Source of the DNA: Daejeonella sp. JGW-45
GTDB lineage: Bacteria; Bacteroidota; Bacteroidia; Sphingobacteriales; Sphingobacteriaceae
Assembly (NCBI RefSeq): GCF_029360805.1
Contig: NZ_JARKNC010000006.1
Location: 188,199-252,198, forward strand
DNA: 64,000 nt
Direction: 5' to 3'
The translations under genes were made by a program, and so were the position numbers. Below are positions 32,475 to 41,272 of the stretch, in pieces (positions within the stretch are counted from its first letter, which is position 1; each line of letters starts with the position of its first letter). The notes under the pieces are model-generated. The model worked only from the letters and a program-made list of their open reading frames with translations, made no database searches and had not been told where the DNA came from.

Positions 32475-33218
32475 CTAAATCACCTTGAAGAACTGATTGT
32501 ACTTCTCTAGTTTCTTATCGCCAGGCGCCAGGTCAGTCAGTAAAAAATCAATTGTGTTTAAACTGCAAACCTGTAGTTTGTGATTAGTTTCAAGCTTTTC
32601 GGCGATACTCATCACGGCAACTCTTCGTGAAGCCTTGATTATCGCCTTTTTAACCTGTACAATCTCCCAGTCATAATCCGTCAGGCCTGCCTCTGCTGAT
32701 ATCCCGTTCGTTCCTAAAAAGCATAAGTCCACATGTATCTCCGAAAGCTGGCTCACAACAGAGGCTCCCGTACATATATAAGAATTAGGCGCCAGCTGTC
32801 CGGCAAGCAGGATCACGTTTACACTTGATCGTTGCGCTACCTCGAGGGCTACCAGTGGGCTTACCGTAAAAAGAGTACCTGTCAGGTCAGCGGGAATCAT
32901 CTTGGCAAACTCCACCATAATAGTCCCGCCTCCCGTAAGAAGGGTCATGCCGTTCTGAACCAGGCTTAATGCCTTTTCGGCTATTCGCATCTTTTCCTCT
33001 TTCGCATATACAGCTGCCTGCTGAAAAGGTTGATGAAAGGTCTTAGCCAAAGCGCCACCATGAACCTTTAGGATCTTGCCTTCTTTTTCAAGCTCCATAA
33101 GATCCCTGCGCACCGTATCAAGTGAAACACCTAACAAAGTGCAGAGCTCGTTCGATAAAACCTTGTGATGAAGGCTGATCTGTTCTAGAATTATTTTCTG
33201 CCGTTCTTCCTGAAGCAT
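32475..33218 (-). CDS. DeoR/GlpR family transcriptional regulator
   Basis: The 247-residue protein begins with a DeoR helix-turn-helix (LLGVSLDTVRRDLMELEKEGKILKVHGGA) and continues with the DeoRC sugar-phosphate sensor domain, including GGGTIMVEFAKMIP and CFLGTNGISAEAGLTDYDWE. Such proteins usually repress sugar genes and are released by a sugar phosphate. It diverges from the GH9 gene, and palindromes containing GCAA/TTGC lie within and just after the GH9 promoter. It is the likely regulator of the 33.4-41.3 kb glycan locus. Confidence 0.95.
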   Translation of the reverse strand: MLQEERQKIILEQISLHHKVLSNELCTLLGVSLDTVRRDLMELEKEGKILKVHGGALAKTFHQPFQQAAVYAKEEKMRIAEKALSLVQNGMTLLTGGGTIMVEFAKMIPADLTGTLFTVSPLVALEVAQRSSVNVILLAGQLAPNSYICTGASVVSQLSEIHVDLCFLGTNGISAEAGLTDYDWEIVQVKKAIIKASRRVAVMSIAEKLETNHKLQVCSLNTIDFLLTDLAPGDKKLEKYNQFFKVI

Positions 33219-33255
33219 TCGTTTAATTATGGAATTATTTACTGAAATTAATGGT

Positions 33256-33263
33256 CAAATATA
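33256..33263 (-). promoter_or_regulatory. Promoter -7 box of the DeoR-type gene
   Basis: TATATTTG on the minus strand matches TAnnTTTG and lies 37 nt before the ATG. A TTTG at 33281-33284 (17-nt spacer) or a TTG at 33286-33288 (22-nt spacer) could be the -33 box. Confidence 0.5.
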
Positions 33264-33326
33264 ATCTAAACTCTGATTCACAAATCAAGGACACTGCCGG
33301 ATTAATTCGCTAAACTAAATATTTTG

Positions 33327-33357
33327 TTTGCGTTTTATTGCAATTATTATACATTTG
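33327..33357 (+). promoter_or_regulatory. Promoter of the GH9 gene and downstream locus
   Basis: TTTG (33327-33330), a 19-nt spacer and TACATTTG (33350-33357) match the Bacteroidota promoter pattern. The expected transcription start is near 33364, giving a leader of about 35 nt before the ATG at 33399. This is one of the best promoter matches in the window. Confidence 0.6.
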
Positions 33358-33382
33358 AAAATAAGATATCGCAAAATATTGC
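33337..33382. promoter_or_regulatory. Candidate operator palindromes around the GH9 promoter
   Basis: ATTGCAAT (33337-33344) is a perfect palindrome inside the promoter spacer, and GCAAAATATTGC (33371-33382), with GCAA/TTGC ends, lies just past the expected start point. Both share the word ATTGCA and are placed where a repressor would block polymerase. The divergent DeoR-type protein is the natural candidate. Binding is inferred, not shown. Confidence 0.35.
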
Positions 33383-33398
33383 ATTCTTAATAAGCATT

Positions 33399-35210
33399 AT
33401 GGCTATTATCAGAAAATCATTAATTATTTCTTTAATTGCTTTCATTTCATCCGGTCTTGTGGCGCAGGAGAAAGCCAGCAGTTGGATCAGGATTAACCAG
33501 ATGGGATATTCGGATAAGGCAGTAAAAGTTGCTGTTCTTGCCTCCAAGAATTCGAACAGGGTAAGAAGCTTCGAACTGGTCGATGCCCTTACTTCCAAAA
33601 CAGTTTTAAAGAAGGCTGCCGGTAAGAATTTTGGAGAATACGGTCCTTTTATATCCTCTTATCGTCTTGATTTTTCGGAGGTTGAAAAGCCAGGAACATA
33701 TTATCTTCAGGCAGGAGAAACCCGGTCGCCCCAATTCTCCATTGGCTCGGAAGCCTATAAAGGGTCGGCAGATTTTGCTCTCAGATATATGCGCCAGCAG
33801 CGATGCGGGTATAATCCATATCTCAAAGCCAGCTGCCATGTACACGACGGTTATAGCGTCTACGGCCCAATGCCCGACAAGACGCCTGTTGATGTTACAG
33901 GAGGCTGGCATGACGCGTCGGATTACCTTCAATATTCAACTACTTCAGCTAATGCGACCTATCACCTGCTTGCTGCCTACCGCGACTTTCCCGCTGTTTT
34001 TAACGACAGACATCTGGCCAACGGACTTGAAGGCACTAACGGAACCTCTGACGTGCTGGATGAAGCCAGGTGGGGACTGGACTGGCTGTTGAAAATGCAC
34101 CCGAGGGAAGGCTGGATGTTTAATCAGATAGCTGACGACCGGGATCATGCGGGATACCGCCTGCCTCATCTTGATTCTGTGGATTACGGCTATGGCAGGG
34201 GGACAGGAAGGCCGGTTTATTTTATAACTGGTGAAAAGCAAGGCCTGGGTAAATTTAAAAACAACGCAACAGGTACAGCTTCTACTGCCGGTAAATTTGC
34301 AAGCGCATTTGCCCTTGCATCCCAGGTTTATAATGGGCAGGATAAGTTTATGGCCGATATCTTTCGGAACCGGTCGATTTCCGCATATAATTTCGGCCTT
34401 GCAAAGCCAGGGAATGCCCAAACCGCTTCAGTAAGGGCTCCTTATATTTATGCCGAAGGTAATTGGGTAGATGACATGGAGTTGGGTGCAGCCGCAATTT
34501 ACCAGCTTACCGGCGATAAGAAATATATGGAGCAAGGCTTGAAATACAGTGATGAGGAAAAGATTACACCATGGATGGGCGCAGATACTGCCAACCATTA
34601 TCAATATTATCCGTTCCATAATTTCGGTCATTTTGAACTTGCAAAAAGCGGCGACGCTGCTGCTAAGGCGAAGCTGATCAGCTACTACAAGGAAGGTATT
34701 GAAAAGGTCTGGCAAAAATCAAAAGGAAACGCTTTCTACCGTGGGGTTCCGTTTATCTGGTGCTCTAATAACCTGACCACATCTTTTGCGATACAATGTT
34801 ATTTATACCGGAAACTTAGCGGTGACAATACTTATGTACAGTTAGAGCAGTCAAGCTTCGACTGGCTTTTCGGACTTAATCCATGGGGCACCAGCATGGT
34901 GTTCGGTCTCCCCTCGCATGGCGATACCCCGGTCGATCCGCATTCATCACTGACCGTTCTTAAAAACTATCCATTGGATGGAGGTTTAGTCGACGGGCCG
35001 GTATACGGCAGTATTTATGGAAACCTGATAGGTATTGAGTTGTCAAAAGAGGATGAGTATGCTGAATTCCAATCAAAACTGGCGGTTTACCACGATGATA
35101 TAGGTGATTACAGTACCAATGAGCCAACCATGGATGGAACGGCGGCACTGGTTTATTTACTGGCAGCTAAAGAACATGATTCACGGGAGGGAGTCGCCGA
35201 AAAAAAGTAG
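33399..35210 (+). CDS. Glycoside hydrolase family 9 enzyme (possible first half of a frameshift fusion)
   Basis: The 603-residue protein starts at ATG 33399 with a signal peptide (about 22 residues, ending LVAQE). An N-terminal Ig-like CelD domain (SSWIRINQMGYSDKAVKVAVLA) is followed by the GH9 alpha barrel with WHDASDY holding Asp172 and Asp175 and the catalytic acid Glu575 in STNEPTMD. GH9 enzymes split beta-1,4-glucans; some cut glucosaminyl or chitobiosyl bonds. The amino-sugar context here favours the latter, but this is inference. An upstream ATG-less extension from 33324 was rejected because it precedes the signal peptide and overlaps the promoter. The frame ends in GAA AAA AAG TAG, and a deacetylase continues in the -1 frame. 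Confidence 0.93.
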   Translation: MAIIRKSLIISLIAFISSGLVAQEKASSWIRINQMGYSDKAVKVAVLASKNSNRVRSFELVDALTSKTVLKKAAGKNFGEYGPFISSYRLDFSEVEKPGTYYLQAGETRSPQFSIGSEAYKGSADFALRYMRQQRCGYNPYLKASCHVHDGYSVYGPMPDKTPVDVTGGWHDASDYLQYSTTSANATYHLLAAYRDFPAVFNDRHLANGLEGTNGTSDVLDEARWGLDWLLKMHPREGWMFNQIADDRDHAGYRLPHLDSVDYGYGRGTGRPVYFITGEKQGLGKFKNNATGTASTAGKFASAFALASQVYNGQDKFMADIFRNRSISAYNFGLAKPGNAQTASVRAPYIYAEGNWVDDMELGAAAIYQLTGDKKYMEQGLKYSDEEKITPWMGADTANHYQYYPFHNFGHFELAKSGDAAAKAKLISYYKEGIEKVWQKSKGNAFYRGVPFIWCSNNLTTSFAIQCYLYRKLSGDNTYVQLEQSSFDWLFGLNPWGTSMVFGLPSHGDTPVDPHSSLTVLKNYPLDGGLVDGPVYGSIYGNLIGIELSKEDEYAEFQSKLAVYHDDIGDYSTNEPTMDGTAALVYLLAAKEHDSREGVAEKK

Positions 35211-35212
35211 TT
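35185..35212 (+). promoter_or_regulatory. Candidate -1 ribosomal frameshift site between GH9 and deacetylase
   Basis: The GH9 frame ends with the heptamer A AAA AAG (35201-35207) in the correct phase, immediately followed by stop TAG (35208-35210). A purine run GGGAGGGAG (35185-35193) lies 7 nt upstream and resembles the Shine-Dalgarno stimulator of the Escherichia coli dnaX site, where the spacer is 10 nt. After a -1 slip the frame reads GTA GTT ATT GAT and stays open to the deacetylase stop at 35935. No strong downstream stem-loop was seen. A lost A in the run of seven, real or from sequencing, is the alternative. Confidence 0.5.
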
Positions 35213-35935
35213 ATTGATGCCAACGGAGCGATAATTCGTGGTGATATAACAAAGAAGCAGATAGCCCTGGTGTTTACAGGAGACGAATTTGCTGATGGCG
35301 GAGAAGTGATCAGGAGTGCACTCAAACAGAACAATGTACCCGCTTCGTTTTTCCTTACGGGCAACTTCTATGCTGACGCTCGTTTTAAGGGACTTATTAA
35401 GGGCTTGAAAAAGGACGGGCATTATCTAGGAGCGCATTCAGACAGGCACCTTTTGTACGCGGATTGGACGAAAAGAGGCAGCCTGCTGGTCAGCCGCCAA
35501 GAGTTTAATGATGACTTGCTTAAGAACTATGAACGAATGGCAGGTTTCGGTATAAGAAGGAAAGATGCGCCGTATTTCCTTCCTCCATATGAATGGTACA
35601 ATTCTACCATCGCTAAATGGACGGATGAGATGGGCTTAAAGCTGATTAACTTTTCGCCGGGCACGCGGTCTGCAGCCGATTATACATACCCTGAGATGGG
35701 CGCGGCTTACCGGCCTGCTGATGAGATTTATCGGTCGATAATTGAGAAAGAAAGAACAGATACCAATGGTCTAAACGGCTTTATTTTGCTTGTACACATC
35801 GGTACCGATCCGCGCCGGACAGATAAATTTTATAACAGGCTGGATGAATTGCTGAGAGAATTAAAGAGTATGGGATACAGTTTCGTGAAGCTGAATGATC
35901 TTATGGATGATCAGCCTGGATTTGCTAAGAGATAA
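35207..35935 (+). CDS. NodB/CE4-type polysaccharide deacetylase domain (lacks a proper own start)
   Basis: This frame holds a NodB-homology domain. The first strand is QIALVFTGDEFADGG, the metal-binding pair is HSDRH (35435-35449), a third motif is FLPPYEWYN, and the last is LLVHIGTD. CE4 enzymes remove N-acetyl groups from chitin-like sugars using a metal ion. The only usable start codon is GTG 35270, which would cut into the first core strand, and no signal peptide is present. In-frame sequence continues upstream as a natural linker to 35207, where it meets the GH9 3' end. It is therefore probably translated as the C-terminal half of a GH9 fusion, or is a gene broken by a one-base deletion. 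Coordinates begin at the first -1 frame codon. Confidence 0.8.
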   Translation, partial: VVIDANGAIIRGDITKKQIALVFTGDEFADGGEVIRSALKQNNVPASFFLTGNFYADARFKGLIKGLKKDGHYLGAHSDRHLLYADWTKRGSLLVSRQEFNDDLLKNYERMAGFGIRRKDAPYFLPPYEWYNSTIAKWTDEMGLKLINFSPGTRSAADYTYPEMGAAYRPADEIYRSIIEKERTDTNGLNGFILLVHIGTDPRRTDKFYNRLDELLRELKSMGYSFVKLNDLMDDQPGFAKR

Positions 35936-35943
35936 TCTAACTA

Positions 35944-35985
35944 CAAAATACTTGGTGCTAAATACTTTGTACTAAATACTAACTA
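35944..35985 (+). repeat. Three imperfect 14-bp tandem repeats before the ROK gene
   Basis: The units CAAAATACTTGGTG, CTAAATACTTTGTA and CTAAATACTAACTA follow one another directly and fill most of the 52-bp gap before ATG 35988. They may be word-like intergenic repeats or repeated binding sites. Confidence 0.6.
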
Positions 35986-35987
35986 TT

Positions 35988-36944
35988 ATGTCGGTACTCG
36001 GAATTGATTTAGGCGGGACAAAAATAGCAGCAGCTCTTTTTAGTGCCGCGGGAGATATGGTCAGCAAGGAGTCTGTTGCGCTCCATGGTAAAAAAGGCAG
36101 CGAAGTCGGCGGCCTGGTCACAGAGCTTGTAGAAAAGTTCTTACGAACTTCAGCGGAAAGCGGCATAACTGCTATCGGCGTTTGTGTTCCGGGTATAAGC
36201 AGGATTAGTAGCGGGACCGTTTGGGCACCAAATATTCCTGGATGGGATGACTATCCGCTGCTTAAAGAATTGCAGGATGTTTGCGGATCTATACCGGTTG
36301 TTATTGACAGCGACAGGGCATGTTATATACTGGGCGAAAATTGGAAAGGTGCTGCAAAGGGCTGCAGCGATGCGATCTATCTTTCTGTCGGAACGGGAAT
36401 CGGGGCGGGTATTCTGATTAACGATACGATACTTCGGGGAGCGCATGACATAGCAGGCTGTATAGGCTGGATGGCGCTTGATGGGCACTTCAAGGATAAA
36501 TATATCCCGTGCGGATGTTTCGAATACCACGCTTCAGGAGAAGGCATCGCTAAAGTGTGCCGCGAGCTTTTGCAGGAAACTACCGAATACGACGGCATTT
36601 TAAGCGATAAAGCTCTGGACGATATAACAGCAGCAGATGTGTTTTCAGCTTATGATCAAGGCGACGGTATTGCACGCGAGGTAATAGATCAGTGTATCCG
36701 CTTCTGGGGAATGGCCATAGCTAACCTGATCAGTCTTTTCAATCCCGAAAAAATAATTATGGGAGGCGGGGTTTTTGGTCCTGCAGCCCGTTGTATACCT
36801 GAAATCAAAGCAGAGGCCGATAAATGGGCTCAACCTATTTCTGTAACCCAGGTCAGCATTGAACATTCCCGCCTGGGCGGTGATGCAGGTGTTTACGGTG
36901 CAGCATATCTGGCTCTAAAAAGCATTAAACCAATTGATAAGTGA
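35988..36944 (+). CDS. ROK family sugar kinase
   Basis: The 318-residue protein has the ROK phosphate loop VLGIDLGGTKIAAALF, the block IYLSVGTGIGAGIL, and a catalytic-region HDIAGCIGWMAL. The zinc loop is short: where most ROK kinases read CxCGxxGCxE, this protein reads IPCGCFEYHASGEG. It probably phosphorylates a hexose or N-acetylhexosamine in the cytoplasm; the glycan locus suggests an amino sugar. The MFS gene starts 1 bp after its stop, so the two are coupled. Family secure, substrate inferred. Confidence 0.93.
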   Translation: MSVLGIDLGGTKIAAALFSAAGDMVSKESVALHGKKGSEVGGLVTELVEKFLRTSAESGITAIGVCVPGISRISSGTVWAPNIPGWDDYPLLKELQDVCGSIPVVIDSDRACYILGENWKGAAKGCSDAIYLSVGTGIGAGILINDTILRGAHDIAGCIGWMALDGHFKDKYIPCGCFEYHASGEGIAKVCRELLQETTEYDGILSDKALDDITAADVFSAYDQGDGIAREVIDQCIRFWGMAIANLISLFNPEKIIMGGGVFGPAARCIPEIKAEADKWAQPISVTQVSIEHSRLGGDAGVYGAAYLALKSIKPIDK

Positions 36945-36945
36945 A

Positions 36946-38112
36946 ATGTATAAAGCCAGACTAGTTTTCTTTGCTGCCTGTTTAGGCTTATTGTTGTTCG
37001 GGATAGGGCTGATAACGCTGGGTTCAGTAGCCACGGGCCTTCGCGAGAAGTTTATGCTGGACGAAATTACCGCCGGCACTCTGTTCTCAATTATGCCTTT
37101 TGGCATCCTTACCGGTTCGCTGGTCTTTGGACCGCTTTGTGATAAATATGGCTACAAAGCCTTTCTAATAATATCTTCCCTTTGCATGTTCGCAGGTTTT
37201 CAAGGCATAGCATACGCCGGTGATCTGAGTCTCCTTAAAATATTCATTTTTCTATTTGGATTGGCAGGAGGTGCTATAAATGGAGCAACGAATGCTGTAG
37301 TTGCCGACATCAGTATGGAGAATAAAGGTGCAAATTTGAGTTTGCTTGGCGTGTCATTCGCGGTAGGGGCGCTCGGTATGCCGTTTATATTGGGCATACT
37401 TGAAGGCCGGTATTCTTTCAGTGCAATCCTTTCGTCTGTCGGGTTTCTGACACTTCTGGCAGCGGCATTCTTTGCCCTGATCAATTTTCCTCCTGCAAAG
37501 CAGAAGCAGGACATACCTGTGTTACAGGGTATGAAATTGCTTGGCGATAATTTCATACTTCTTGTAGGTTTTTTTCTCTTCTGTCAGAGCGCTTACGAGG
37601 CAGTGATCAACAATTGGACGACCAGTTACCTTATCGACCAGCTCAGCGTTTCAAGAAGTAACGCACTTTATGCCCTATCGCTTTACGTGGTAGGTATGGC
37701 TGTTACACGACTTTTGGCTGGCAGTGTGTTCAGGAAGGCAAAACCGCACAGTATTATGTACGTTTCATTAGGGCTTCTTTTCCTGGGGGCCACGCTGCTG
37801 CGTTTAAATCATTCCTTTGAACTGGCTGTGTGCGGACTGATCATTACCGGCGCGGGTCTTGCCTCCGGTTTCCCGGTGATGCTTGGATTTGTGGGCGAAC
37901 GTTATGCCGCCCTTTCTGCAACGGCATTCAGCGTTGTGCTGGTTATCGCGCTGATCGGAAATATACTGGTCACTTACCTGATGGGCCTTATAGCCCAGGG
38001 TTATGGGATATCCAATCTGACCCTGGTTACCTATTTGTTGAACGCCGTCATGTTCATCTTAACACTTTTAATCATCAGAAAAATAAATATCAATCCACTC
38101 AACAATAAATAA
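36946..38112 (+). CDS. MFS family sugar transporter
   Basis: The 388-residue protein has about twelve membrane helices and MFS signatures, including the loop 2-3 segment FGPLCDKYGYKAFLI. I placed the start at ATG 36946, one base after the ROK stop, instead of the in-frame TTG at 36934. It probably imports the sugar that the neighbouring kinase phosphorylates. No SusC/SusD genes are found here, so this is the only transporter of the locus. Confidence 0.92.
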   Translation: MYKARLVFFAACLGLLLFGIGLITLGSVATGLREKFMLDEITAGTLFSIMPFGILTGSLVFGPLCDKYGYKAFLIISSLCMFAGFQGIAYAGDLSLLKIFIFLFGLAGGAINGATNAVVADISMENKGANLSLLGVSFAVGALGMPFILGILEGRYSFSAILSSVGFLTLLAAAFFALINFPPAKQKQDIPVLQGMKLLGDNFILLVGFFLFCQSAYEAVINNWTTSYLIDQLSVSRSNALYALSLYVVGMAVTRLLAGSVFRKAKPHSIMYVSLGLLFLGATLLRLNHSFELAVCGLIITGAGLASGFPVMLGFVGERYAALSATAFSVVLVIALIGNILVTYLMGLIAQGYGISNLTLVTYLLNAVMFILTLLIIRKININPLNNK

Positions 38113-38120
38113 TACAAATT

Positions 38121-38882
38121 ATGTTAGCACAACAATGGCTTAAGAATGCAAGGGATGTAATGACCCGTATCGAGGAAACCCAAATGGATAATATCCGCAT
38201 TGCAGCAGAAATAATGGCCGATTCAATTGAAGCCGGGAGATGGGTCCATACGTTCGGATGCGGCCATGCCACCATACCGATCGAAGAGATGTACCCGCGT
38301 ATAGGGGGCTTTGTAGGCTTCCATCCGATGGTGGAACTTCCTCTTACATTTTTTACCAGGATAACCGGAGAAATGGGCGTGCACCAGTTTGTGTTTCTTG
38401 AACGTGTTGAAGGATATGGCGTAGAGATCATGAAAGGCTATACTTTCGATACCCGCGATACTATGTGGCTTTTTTCTCATACTGGAATAAATAATGTAAA
38501 CATCGATGTAGCGCTCGAAGCGAAGAAAAAAGGTATGAAGGTGATCGTATTCGGGTCTGCATCTGAAGCCGTAGGGAAGAAAACCCGTCATTCGAGCGGT
38601 AAAACCATATTTGACATCGCTGACCATGTGGTAGATTCATGCGCTCCTATAGGCGATGCCTCAGTAGACCTTAAAAACCACCAGGATAAAATTGGCCCCG
38701 TTTCCACAATGGCATTTATTACCTGTGTATGGATGACAGTTACTACTGTAGCTGAGATCCTCGCTGAGCGTGGTGTCAAATTATTTATTCATCCATCACA
38801 TAATGTTCCGGGTGATGACACGGCTAAAGAAAGATTGGAAGATTGCCTGGCTGAGTATAAGAGAAGGATAGCGGGAGTTTAA
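38121..38882 (+). CDS. SIS-domain sugar-phosphate protein (UPF0309-like)
   Basis: The 253-residue protein carries a SIS domain with VHTFGCGHATIPIEEMYPRIGG at the front and TMWLFSHTGINNVNIDVALEAKKKGMKVIVFGS in the middle. It resembles the UPF0309 group of sugar-phosphate isomerase-like proteins; the exact reaction is not known. It follows the MFS gene by 8 bp in the presumed operon and likely acts on the phosphosugar made by the ROK kinase. Isomerase, deaminase-like or binding roles are all possible. Confidence 0.85.
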   Translation: MLAQQWLKNARDVMTRIEETQMDNIRIAAEIMADSIEAGRWVHTFGCGHATIPIEEMYPRIGGFVGFHPMVELPLTFFTRITGEMGVHQFVFLERVEGYGVEIMKGYTFDTRDTMWLFSHTGINNVNIDVALEAKKKGMKVIVFGSASEAVGKKTRHSSGKTIFDIADHVVDSCAPIGDASVDLKNHQDKIGPVSTMAFITCVWMTVTTVAEILAERGVKLFIHPSHNVPGDDTAKERLEDCLAEYKRRIAGV

Positions 38883-38896
38883 ATCCGATCAAACAG

Positions 38897-38939
38897 ATTC
38901 ATTCCTTCAGACTTGTTTGTCAAGTTTGAAGGGATGAAT
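38897..38939 (+). terminator. Long hairpin at the end of the SIS gene
   Basis: A 19-nt left arm (38897-38915) pairs along its full length with the right arm (38921-38939), counting two G-U pairs, around a 5-nt loop. It starts 15 nt past the SIS stop. No T run follows, so termination or mRNA protection are both possible. Confidence 0.55.
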
Positions 38940-38997
38940 TCTGTGAGTGATGGCCAGTTTAAAGTATAGACAACATTGTATTGACACGGCTTATTAC

Positions 38998-39041
38998 TCG
39001 GATATTAGTCGGACGTTAGTCGGATATTGGTCGGACATATG
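38998..39041 (+). repeat. Four 11-bp direct repeats (TCGGAYRTTRG type)
   Basis: The units TCGGATATTAG, TCGGACGTTAG, TCGGATATTGG and TCGGACATATG follow without spacers. An 11-bp step places each copy on nearly the same face of the DNA. They lie about 180 bp upstream of the GH18 promoter. Confidence 0.7.
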
Positions 39042-39220
39042 ACAATTGAAGACGACTGAAATACGACTTATACATGAATTATATATGAGGAACTAGCCGC
39101 ATAGAGTATACCTAATCACGTAGTCATTCCAGATAAAACTGGAACTCATCATTAATAAAATTCGGGCAACTGGTCCACGTTGGGGTCTTGAAAGTAAGTT
39201 TTAACAAATCATTATCCCCA

Positions 39221-39251
39221 TTGCACCCCTAAGTGTCATTGATTACATTTA
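39221..39251 (+). promoter_or_regulatory. Candidate promoter of the GH18-like gene
   Basis: TTG (39221-39223), a 20-nt spacer and TACATTTA (39244-39251, one base off TAnnTTTG) precede the ATG at 39274 by 22 nt. Confidence 0.4.
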
Positions 39252-39273
39252 CACCAACCAAAACCATCACCTC

Positions 39274-40329
39274 ATGCTGAAAAGGATATTCTTAATGGCG
39301 GTGCTCATAATTGCAGCATCCATTACAAAAGCACAGACAAAATCAGAAAACCTGTTTTACATGGTTAACACCCCTGAATCTTTCGAGAGCTTCAGAGCGA
39401 ATGTGGACCAAATATCAATCGTCTGTCCGCAGACATTTTTAGTGAGTAAAGAGGGCACGCTGTCCGGATCAGTAGACCCGCGTGTGCTTTCTCTGGCTAA
39501 GGCAAATAATGTGAAGGTTATGCCCCTGATTGTAAACAGCGGCTTTGATCAAAAACTGCTGCATGATATTGTGTCAAATCCTGTAGCACGCAAGCGCTCC
39601 ATAGAAATGATGCTTGAGTACGCTAAGAAATATGATCTGGATGGCTGGCAGTTTGATCTGGAAGGATTAAGCATCCGCGACATGGCATATTTTACTCAGT
39701 ATTTCAAGGAGACTGCAGACGCACTTCACAAAAATAAGCTGCAGTTATCTGCTGCCCTGGTCCATGCAACAGAGAATGTAGGCGGACCTACCGCATATCA
39801 CCTCTTTTTATATGAAAACTGGAGAGCGGGATACTCTTTCAAAGAATTATCAGAGATCGGCGATTTTATCTCTATCATGACCTACGATCAGCATACAAGG
39901 CGTACTCCGCCAGGACCGGTTGCAAGTCCGGAGTGGATGGAAAAGGTTATTAAATACCTTCTTGATCAAGGTGTTAAACCCGAGAAACTCTCGATGGGGA
40001 TTCCAAACTATTCGGTGCACTGGTTTACCGATTATACTACTGAGCGTGGCGGTTTTGCAAATGGCAGAAGTGCCAAATACCCAATGGTGCAGCATCTTTT
40101 GGGACAGAATAACGCGAAGAAGGTTTGGCATGAGAAAGCTCAGGTGAATTGGGCGATGTGGGACAAAGATGGCGTGTTCGAGTATTTATTTATCGAGGAT
40201 GCGCAGTCGTTAAAGCCAAAACTTGACTTGCTGAAGAAATATAACCTGAGAGGTATTTCCGTGTGGGTACTTGGTGGTGAAGACCCTGAGGGATGGAATG
40301 TGCTGAGGAAAGAAACGGTTCGTAAATAA
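39274..40329 (+). CDS. Secreted GH18-like glycosidase (chitinase/SleL type)
   Basis: The 351-residue protein has a signal peptide (about 20 residues, ending TKAQ). The barrel shows the GH18 catalytic motif in DGWQFDLEG, with Asp123, Asp128 and the catalytic acid Glu130, and the later strand SIMTYDQH. GH18 enzymes cut beta-1,4 bonds next to N-acetylglucosamine in chitin or peptidoglycan. The short form without binding modules resembles SleL/YaaH-type domains. It lies at the end of an amino-sugar locus and precedes the Gfo/Idh gene by 19 bp. Substrate could be chitin oligomers, peptidoglycan or host glycans. Confidence 0.9.
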   Translation: MLKRIFLMAVLIIAASITKAQTKSENLFYMVNTPESFESFRANVDQISIVCPQTFLVSKEGTLSGSVDPRVLSLAKANNVKVMPLIVNSGFDQKLLHDIVSNPVARKRSIEMMLEYAKKYDLDGWQFDLEGLSIRDMAYFTQYFKETADALHKNKLQLSAALVHATENVGGPTAYHLFLYENWRAGYSFKELSEIGDFISIMTYDQHTRRTPPGPVASPEWMEKVIKYLLDQGVKPEKLSMGIPNYSVHWFTDYTTERGGFANGRSAKYPMVQHLLGQNNAKKVWHEKAQVNWAMWDKDGVFEYLFIEDAQSLKPKLDLLKKYNLRGISVWVLGGEDPEGWNVLRKETVRK

Positions 40330-40348
40330 GCTTGACTACTATAAGATC

Positions 40349-41272
40349 GTGCTAAAGATAGGTATCATTGGCCTCGGGGATATTGCTCAAAAAGCATATT
40401 TACCGGTATTATGCAATAAGGAGCTGGATTTTCACCTATATACTCCAGACCAGGAAAAGCTTTCGCGGATTGGCAGGCAGTACCGTTTTCAAAACCTGCA
40501 CCGTGATTTTGAGTCGATATTGAACAGCGGTATCCAGGCAGCATTTGTCCATGCCTCAACGAGCAGTCATGTGGAGATTATCCAGCTGTTGCTGATGAAT
40601 GATATTCATGTGTATGTAGATAAGCCGATCACTTACGATTATGCGTCTTCGAAAAGCCTGGTTCGATTAGCTGAAAGCAGGAAGCTGCTATTGATGGTAG
40701 GCTTCAACCGGCGGTACGCCCCGGCTTACCGTGAACTGAAACAAGTAGCCGAACCTAATATGATCATCATGCAAAAGAACCGGGTAGCCTTGCCAGGCGA
40801 CGTAAGGAACTTCATTTTCGATGATTTTATTCATGTTGTAGATACTATACGTTACCTATTCCCTTACCCTGTTAAAGAGCTGAAGGTAAGTGGTATGAAG
40901 AAGGATAATCTGCTTTACCATGTGGTCATCCAACTGATAGCAGATAACGGGGCGATCGCAATGGGTATAATGAACCGTGACTCGGGACTGGTAGAAGAAA
41001 AAGTAGAAGTGTTTAGCTCCGGAGAGAAGCGAAGTGTTCTGAACGTATCCGCAGTACATATTCAATCTAACAGGGACGATACGAGTAAAGGGATGGGCGA
41101 CTGGGATTCCACGCTTTATAAAAGAGGATTTGAGCAGATAGTGGGAGATTTTCTGCAGGCTGTTGGATCTGGCGGAAAGCCGGAGTTTTCAAGTGCGGAA
41201 TCGTTGCAGACGCATCAGATGTGTGAGGAGATTACCGGTTCACTTTCCATTGATGTGATTCGCCCCCTATGA
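40349..41272 (+). CDS. Gfo/Idh/MocA family oxidoreductase
   Basis: The 307-residue protein begins at GTG 40349 with a Rossmann fold (LKIGIIGLGDIAQKAYLPVL) and shows the family motif as VYVDKPITYD, then MVGFNRRYAPAYRELK. These enzymes oxidise or reduce sugars and related polyols with NAD(P). It follows the GH18-like gene by 19 bp and probably belongs to the same message. Its last 41 bp overlap moaE on the opposite strand. Confidence 0.9.
   Translation: MLKIGIIGLGDIAQKAYLPVLCNKELDFHLYTPDQEKLSRIGRQYRFQNLHRDFESILNSGIQAAFVHASTSSHVEIIQLLLMNDIHVYVDKPITYDYASSKSLVRLAESRKLLLMVGFNRRYAPAYRELKQVAEPNMIIMQKNRVALPGDVRNFIFDDFIHVVDTIRYLFPYPVKELKVSGMKKDNLLYHVVIQLIADNGAIAMGIMNRDSGLVEEKVEVFSSGEKRSVLNVSAVHIQSNRDDTSKGMGDWDSTLYKRGFEQIVGDFLQAVGSGGKPEFSSAESLQTHQMCEEITGSLSIDVIRPL

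Follow-up and report, generated by a model that had tools for sequence, protein, structure and literature searches.

A conserved, very probably programmed -1 frameshift between a GH9 glycosidase and a deacetylase-like domain in Bacteroidota

The best-known bacterial genes that depend on recoding are those of insertion sequences, prfB, and dnaX, and the survey that names them predicts 146 clusters (PMC3711429). In Escherichia coli dnaX, the slip site A AAA AAG is preceded by a Shine-Dalgarno (SD)-like element 10 nucleotides (nt) upstream and followed by a hairpin 6 nt downstream (PMC11162774). Orthologues of dnaX interchange ribosomal and transcriptional slippage (PMC3711429). Here we describe a locus in a 64,000-nt stretch of DNA from Daejeonella sp. 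JGW-45 (contig NZ_JARKNC010000006.1, positions 188,199 to 252,198), which we call the window. In it, a gene for a GH9 glycosidase ends in the same heptamer, and a NodB/CE4-like deacetylase domain continues in the -1 frame. Comparison of sequences across relatives makes it very probable that this is conserved programmed -1 frameshifting, by which one gene gives both GH9 alone and a GH9-deacetylase fusion.

The GH9 frame and its slip site

All features of the locus lie on the forward strand of the window. The GH9 open reading frame (ORF) occupies 33399..35210 and encodes 603 amino acids (aa), the product made without a slip. It contains CelD_N and Glyco_hydro_9 domains, and the match to PF00759 (241.5 bits against a Pfam cut-off of 27.7) covers the whole profile, 1-444 of 444, so the unshifted product would hold a whole domain. 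A putative Sec signal peptide, MAIIRKSLIISLIAFISSGLVA, was judged by eye from the translation of 33399..33464, and on this reading the N terminus of GH9 provides the sole export signal noticed for both products. The 3' end of the frame is GTC GCC GAA AAA AAG TAG, with the final GAA AAA AAG TAG at 35199-35210. Seven A residues (35200-35206) are followed by G 35207, and the slippery heptamer A AAA AAG (35201..35207) adjoins the 0-frame stop TAG (35208..35210). The heptamer stands in the phase X XXY YYZ relative to the 0 frame, which reads AAA AAG, while the -1 frame reads AAA AAA and then GTA. Upstream, the purine run GGGAGGGAG (35185-35193) ends 7 nt before the heptamer and contains the SD-like core GGAGG (35186..35190) that is common to relatives, with a spacer of 10 nt between core and heptamer.

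The -1 frame is closed before the slip site by a last TGA at 35177..35179, read from the sequence, and is then uninterrupted from 35180 to the TAA at 35933-35935. Its extension beyond the slip (35201..35935, 244 aa) comprises a linker and the NodB/CE4-like domain. The earliest in-frame start codon, GTG at 35270..35272, is a poor one; it encodes residue 24 of the -1 product, and residues 20-26 form the first core strand in an AlphaFold model (mean pLDDT 88.7). The initial annotation of this DNA had pointed to the heptamer in -1 phase at the GH9 end, the purine run 7 nt upstream, the passage through a linker into a NodB-type domain, and the lack of a good deacetylase start; the sequence, the PF01522 and CE4 matches given below, and the model bear out all four. 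Its description of the signal as dnaX-like holds for two of the three dnaX elements, the heptamer and the SD-like core; of the third, a downstream hairpin, the window has no clear example.

In the mechanism we propose, ribosomes that remain in frame, a frame shown by the sequence, would end GH9 at TAG 35208. A share of ribosomes, with tRNA-Lys on AAA and AAG, would slip one base back at A AAA AAG and go on to read AAA AAA GTA GTT, passing through the short linker into the NodB/CE4-like domain, as conservation of the junction indicates. As in dnaX, slipping is most likely helped by base pairing between the GGAGG core, 10 nt back, and the anti-SD of 16S rRNA; the 16S genes of this genome end in ACCTCC. 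One putative signal peptide would be carried by both products, and fusion to GH9 would be the sole way for the deacetylase-like domain to reach the envelope.

Conservation of the junction among orthologues

Alignment with orthologues, which the initial annotation had put forward as a check and, for continuous frames without a conserved heptamer, as part of its refuting condition, favours frameshifting. The best 80 of 585 confirmed relatives were kept. After 11 of 131 loci were dropped for a weak GH9 score (<500 bits), 120 remained, and 56 regions were added from a separate listing, giving 176 classified loci with a strong GH9 match and, less 12 duplicates, 164 distinct junctions. The deacetylase frame adjacent to GH9 is -1 in 82 of these, 0 in 56, +1 in none, and absent in 26. 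In-frame fusions are under-counted here, as mainly non-fused open-frame lengths were picked for the added regions and the matches listed are a subset of all; by hand count, open frames measure 820-880 aa in about 57 further listed genomes, which were left out and are presumably fused. Random loss of frame should yield both shifted frames, so the occurrence of only -1 and never +1 argues for a signal and not an error.

An in-phase A AAA AAR heptamer is found at 80 of the 82 distinct -1 junctions, and in 61 it is A AAA AAG with a stop immediately 3'. The A run is 6 residues long in 61 of the 82, compared with 7 in the window. At the two -1 loci without a heptamer (L018 and L133), the junction is read through in one frame and the break lies inside the deacetylase. 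For in-frame fusions, the homologous place was taken as 42-60 nt past a DG.A anchor, which could be set in 55 of 56, and an in-phase A AAA AAN is present there only in L031, L072, L103, L117, and L139. The last of these is counted as in-frame yet has A10, a stop, a second break, and an upstream GGAGG, and belongs with the A10 group described below; L107 is likewise ambiguous, its A9 run lying at the deacetylase start, away from the junction. When the interval is widened to 15-120 nt past the anchor, 16 of the 51 fused loci on the tree contain a heptamer, 12 of them at a conserved Lys-Lys that comes later, ahead of the first core strand and away from the junction. Where the deacetylase is absent, 3 of 26 junctions have a heptamer in the last 20 codons, and one, Pontibacter L062, retains both GGAGG and A AAA AAG TAG directly at its end, though no deacetylase was found adjoining.

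Named carriers of the -1 arrangement include 12 Pontibacter records, Daejeonella lutea, Arcticibacter pallidicorallinus, two Parapedobacter, Sphingobacterium alimentarium, and members of the Chitinophagaceae. The heptamer-stop arrangement spans three NCBI families, Sphingobacteriaceae, Hymenobacteraceae, and Chitinophagaceae (five records), although one of the five Chitinophagaceae records, Flavihumibacter soli, is placed in the window's own genus. The same two domains, in the same order and in one frame, are fused in species of Pedobacter, Niastella, and Chitinophaga, and these natural fusions show that a joined protein of this kind is real. Of 80 deacetylase ORFs in the -1 frame, 79 are complete and the 80th (L107) is cut by the locus end; the median dN/dS of 0.115 over 91 pairs with >80% nucleotide identity indicates that they are under purifying selection.

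Long A runs (A9 or longer) occur at 16 of 80 junctions. At all 64 short-run -1 junctions, an SD-like core (GGAGG or GGAG) lies within 27 nt upstream, with a GGAGG spacer of 10 nt in 47 and 13 nt in 7. Codon choice at both elements is skewed: the Glu at codon -5 is GAG in 52 cases and GAA in 1, where the gene bodies use GAG for 45%, and Lys-Lys is coded AAA AAG in 63 of 64, compared with 19% at other places in these genes, in statistics that ignore relatedness. Because of this codon bias at the slip site and the SD-like core, the signal looks selected as RNA. As a background, none of 368 other ORFs (>=250 codons, around the named orthologues) ends in A AAA AAG-stop, and only 3 of the 368 have the heptamer within the last 20 codons. 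Within the 4.1 Mb genome, the pattern GGAGGN{8,14}AAAAAAGTA has one match, at this locus, and a backwards control pattern has 3. The pattern alone is weak evidence; the evidence is its conservation. As a separate observation, the 0-frame stop is TGA at none of the 64 short-run junctions and in 70 of the 368 neighbouring ORFs, again with relatedness ignored.

Relatedness was allowed for on a quick tree of 114 loci with >400 GH9 residues, which has some long branches and lacks most of the 56 added loci. Of 8 independent pairs, 5-7 show the heptamer together with the -1 state and none shows the opposite (median p 0.03). Eight short-run loci, chosen by eye, have a GCC-GGC stem about 5 nt past the heptamer, close to the position of the dnaX hairpin, and L179 preserves this stem via a paired change.

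Several observations weigh against a dnaX-type signal at this locus. With relatedness allowed for, the SD-like core follows the frame in only 1-3 of 8 pairs (median p 0.25, not significant), and an SD-like string is present in the homologous stretch of 14 of 55 in-frame fusions. Across 201 family genomes, the bare pattern occurs at 123 places among the matches listed, 23 of them (hand count) at GH9 genes, and control patterns also match often, so that the family-wide scan is not specific. Downstream structure is not a general feature: the mean z is -0.75, and 12 of 64 short-run junctions fall below -2. The window is not among these 12 and has no significant downstream fold, and only L098 and L177 of the eight hairpin loci reach z < -2 in this general fold test. 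The ribosomes themselves raise a further difficulty. Those of Bacteroidia fail at SD recognition, as the proteins bS21, bS18, and bS6 keep the 16S tail bound (PMC9976891), and the prfB motif of Flavobacterium johnsoniae frameshifts at a low level (PMC12421855); given both, the stimulator may be weak here. In the window genome, bS21 has tyrosine as residue 54, which was the site of mutation in that ribosome work (PMC9976891). The prfB frameshift is nevertheless retained in 523 of 726 Bacteroidia genomes (PMC8710568), and prfB of the window genome (G000:C2 283716, L189) reads CTGAGGAGGCATCTTTGAC, a +1 site with AGGAGG before CTTTGAC, so another internal SD-like signal exists in this genome. That two unrelated genes keep SD-like elements within the coding region at fixed spacing suggests that the anti-SD is available in elongation at least sometimes. 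The question raised is how an SD-like stimulator could work on ribosomes with an occluded anti-SD.

One answer, which we put forward tentatively and regard as unlikely, is a regulated switch of enzyme architecture that responds to ribosome state. Since the 30S subunit of Bacteroidota pockets the anti-SD with bS21, the fraction of GH9 that gains the deacetylase would follow the freedom of the anti-SD (for example, through bS21 occupancy). Ribosome composition would thereby govern the balance between the two exported enzymes, and lineages would swap in a hairpin, a slippage tract, or a fusion.

Some loci have additional features of their own. The in-frame fusion L031 (G121) combines an SD-like GGGAGGG with an A11 run, and a -1 slip there would stop within a few codons and remove the deacetylase, which is the direction of E. 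coli dnaX. In Parapedobacter pyrenivorans (L122:4090-7728), the GH9 ORF is 1213 aa long, with a metallophosphatase and a PQQ-type beta-propeller fused in frame upstream, and together with the -1 frame this single gene may encode a protein of three parts; G022 and G101 also have open frames of 1213-1223 aa. The open frame of L039 (G391) is 1077 aa, more than 200 aa beyond most GH9-deacetylase fusions, and so has an extra part. The GH9-deacetylase of L069, from a record titled Williamsia sp. MAG, nests within Bacteroidota, and the genus label of that contig is probably wrong.

Alternative explanations

The alternative that survives best accepts frameshifting and disputes only its purpose, and is compatible with the mechanism proposed here. 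It holds that the fusion is functional, that slip-prone insertions and deletions are tolerated, and that the junction flips neutrally without a regulatory role. The at least 23 changes among frameshifted, fused, and GH9-alone states on the quick tree speak for neutral flipping. Selection for two products is suggested by the company the slip site keeps, namely the SD-like core, sometimes a hairpin, no +1 junctions, and a stop directly after it in 61 of 82, and GH9 alone is a complete domain that stands solitary in 26 of 164 junctions. We consider a purely neutral history unlikely.

It is also conceivable that RNA polymerase, and not the ribosome, slips at the A run. This fits one group well. 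Exactly 10 A are found in 14 of the 16 long runs, all of them in the one genus Sphingobacterium, and 12 of the 16 junctions with A9 or longer have no SD core, which suggests that the A10 run stands in for the slip signal in Sphingobacterium, by RNA-polymerase slippage; such a run is the mark proposed for programmed transcriptional realignment in two-ORF dnaX genes (PMC3711429). In addition, transcriptional slippage has been argued to be possible even in dnaX genes whose runs are only 8 or 7 A long (PMC3711429), which would include an A7 run like that of the window. Against this, typical runs are of at least 8 (PMC3711429) or nine (PMC5009743) residues, and 61 of 82 junctions have 6 A; the window's 7 likewise fall short of the homopolymer of about 8-9 or longer associated with programmed transcriptional realignment. 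RNA polymerase would need neither the phase, nor AAA AAG coding, nor a spaced SD-like core, all of which are kept. For the locus as a whole, transcriptional slippage is very unlikely. Relatives seem to reach the same outcome through a slip site with SD-like core and hairpin, an A10 run, or plain fusion, with sequences that are shown and mechanisms that are deduced.

Translational coupling would make the deacetylase a gene of its own, with ribosomes restarting close to the stop of GH9. It would account for frames that overlap at the stop as those of coupled genes do, and 15 of 80 members have some start codon before the core. In the other 65 of 80, no ATG, GTG, or TTG occurs before deacetylase residue 15, and ATG is present in only 2 of 80. 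A product begun at GTG 35270 would be short of most of its first core strand and would carry no export signal, and 56 orthologues are continuous fusions. An independent deacetylase start is rejected for most members on the count of 65 without a start codon, and coupling is extremely improbable as an account of the family. Since a normal start is mostly missing, gene callers may split, shorten, or miss such ORFs.

The idea that one of eight A residues is missing through sequencing error or a recent one-base deletion leaving a pseudogene, where the initial annotation had noted that a lost A would also account for the data, draws on the 56 of 164 orthologues fused in frame and on the in-frame A11 run of L031, and is in effect refuted, at a probability close to nil, by orthologues with the same heptamer-stop arrangement in three families, always -1 and never +1, by purifying selection on the -1 deacetylase, and by codon bias that favours the signal.

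The deacetylase-like domain, its neighbours, and comparison with known systems

The -1 product matches Polysacc_deac_1 (PF01522) at 43.1 bits against a Pfam cut-off of 23.1, and the best structural match of its AlphaFold model among CE4 structures is 4m1b (VIA Z 23.0, root-mean-square deviation 2.0 over 197 residues). The CE4 pseudoenzyme 7bkf is also among the matches (Z 20.5). The canonical NodB/CE4 motif 1 is T/S-F-D-D. By eye, the motif here is non-canonical, F-T-[GA]-[DH]-[ED] in 34 of 35 aligned members and F-S-G-D-E in L134, and motif 2 (H79, S80, and H83, as HSxxH) is invariant in aligned members. The earlier label of deacetylase therefore stands for fold and profile and not for canonical motif 1; because of the latter, catalysis is not claimed, and we use deacetylase-like as a fold-level name. 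Solved GH9 chains that were found are mainly endoglucanases, and for this reason no substrate is claimed either.

The gene pair in the window sits in a likely sugar-use cluster (32475-41272) with a DeoR regulator, ROK kinase, MFS transporter, SIS protein, GH18, and Gfo/Idh, neighbours that point to sugar uptake and phosphorylation. This cluster was considered as a conserved operon and rejected: ROK, MFS, and SIS genes occur in 2 of 20 short-run -1 loci (named records, E <= 1e-15), and GH18 and Gfo/Idh in 0 of 20. In Pontibacter and Parapedobacter, the neighbours are GHL10, Amidase_2, MurQ-like SIS, SSF, and SusC/D, which point to the use of peptidoglycan or amino sugars. Among 19 long short-run loci, which are related, GHL10 is found in 12, Amidase_2 in 11, and MurQ-like genes in 9, and the corresponding counts among 28 long fused loci are 1, 0, and 1. 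Trimming of N-acetylated, perhaps peptidoglycan-derived, glycans would be a weak guess at function, weak because these loci are related.

Among the matches listed from open-licence literature, in titles and abstract openings, none is an earlier description of this gene. Deacetylases, glycosidases, cellulases, and endoglucanases are unmentioned in the text of PMC3711429 and in the first 300,000 of the 475,107 characters of PMC5009743. The initial annotation had stated that no described glycosidase was known to use frameshifting of this kind, a point to be qualified by the alpha-L-fucosidase of Saccharolobus solfataricus, also a glycosidase made via -1 programmed frameshifting (PMC8037382). There, the frameshift permits one functional enzyme to be made (PMC8037382), whereas here it would add a second domain to a complete one, in many genera. 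The prfB +1 frameshift, including that of Bacteroidia, resembles the present signal in having an SD-like element within the coding region; it differs in being +1, at UGA, and autoregulatory. Where Pedobacter, Niastella, and Chitinophaga species have the two domains joined in frame, the genome dictates the fusion only. Fused, frameshifted, and single-domain forms occur side by side among the orthologues and would make an evolutionary series already to hand, and, if the proposal is true, this would be broadly conserved recoding in probably exported carbohydrate enzymes.

The dnaX gene remains the closest likeness. Two-ORF dnaX genes with A10 (GeneTack; programmed transcriptional realignment) and the dnaX of Thermus have two ORFs in a -1 relation (PMC3711429), and at the present locus only the Sphingobacterium group has A10. 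The window genome's own dnaX (L195, G000:C7 146993-148057) consists of a single 604-codon ORF that lacks an in-phase A AAA AAG, and it has an in-frame run of ten A at about codons 384-386, like the slippage run of Thermus (PMC3711429). Slipping in dnaX leads to a shorter product (PMC3711429), in contrast to the present gene, where the stop comes after the slip site and a slip would lead to the longer one. The gene is also a different one, with a probably exported product, in a phylum with an occluded anti-SD, and without a clear hairpin in the window. The type of mechanism is known, and what appears new against the open-licence literature searched is the gene that would use it, the phylum in which it occurs, the direction of the slip towards a longer product, and the way in which relatives exchange one solution for another.

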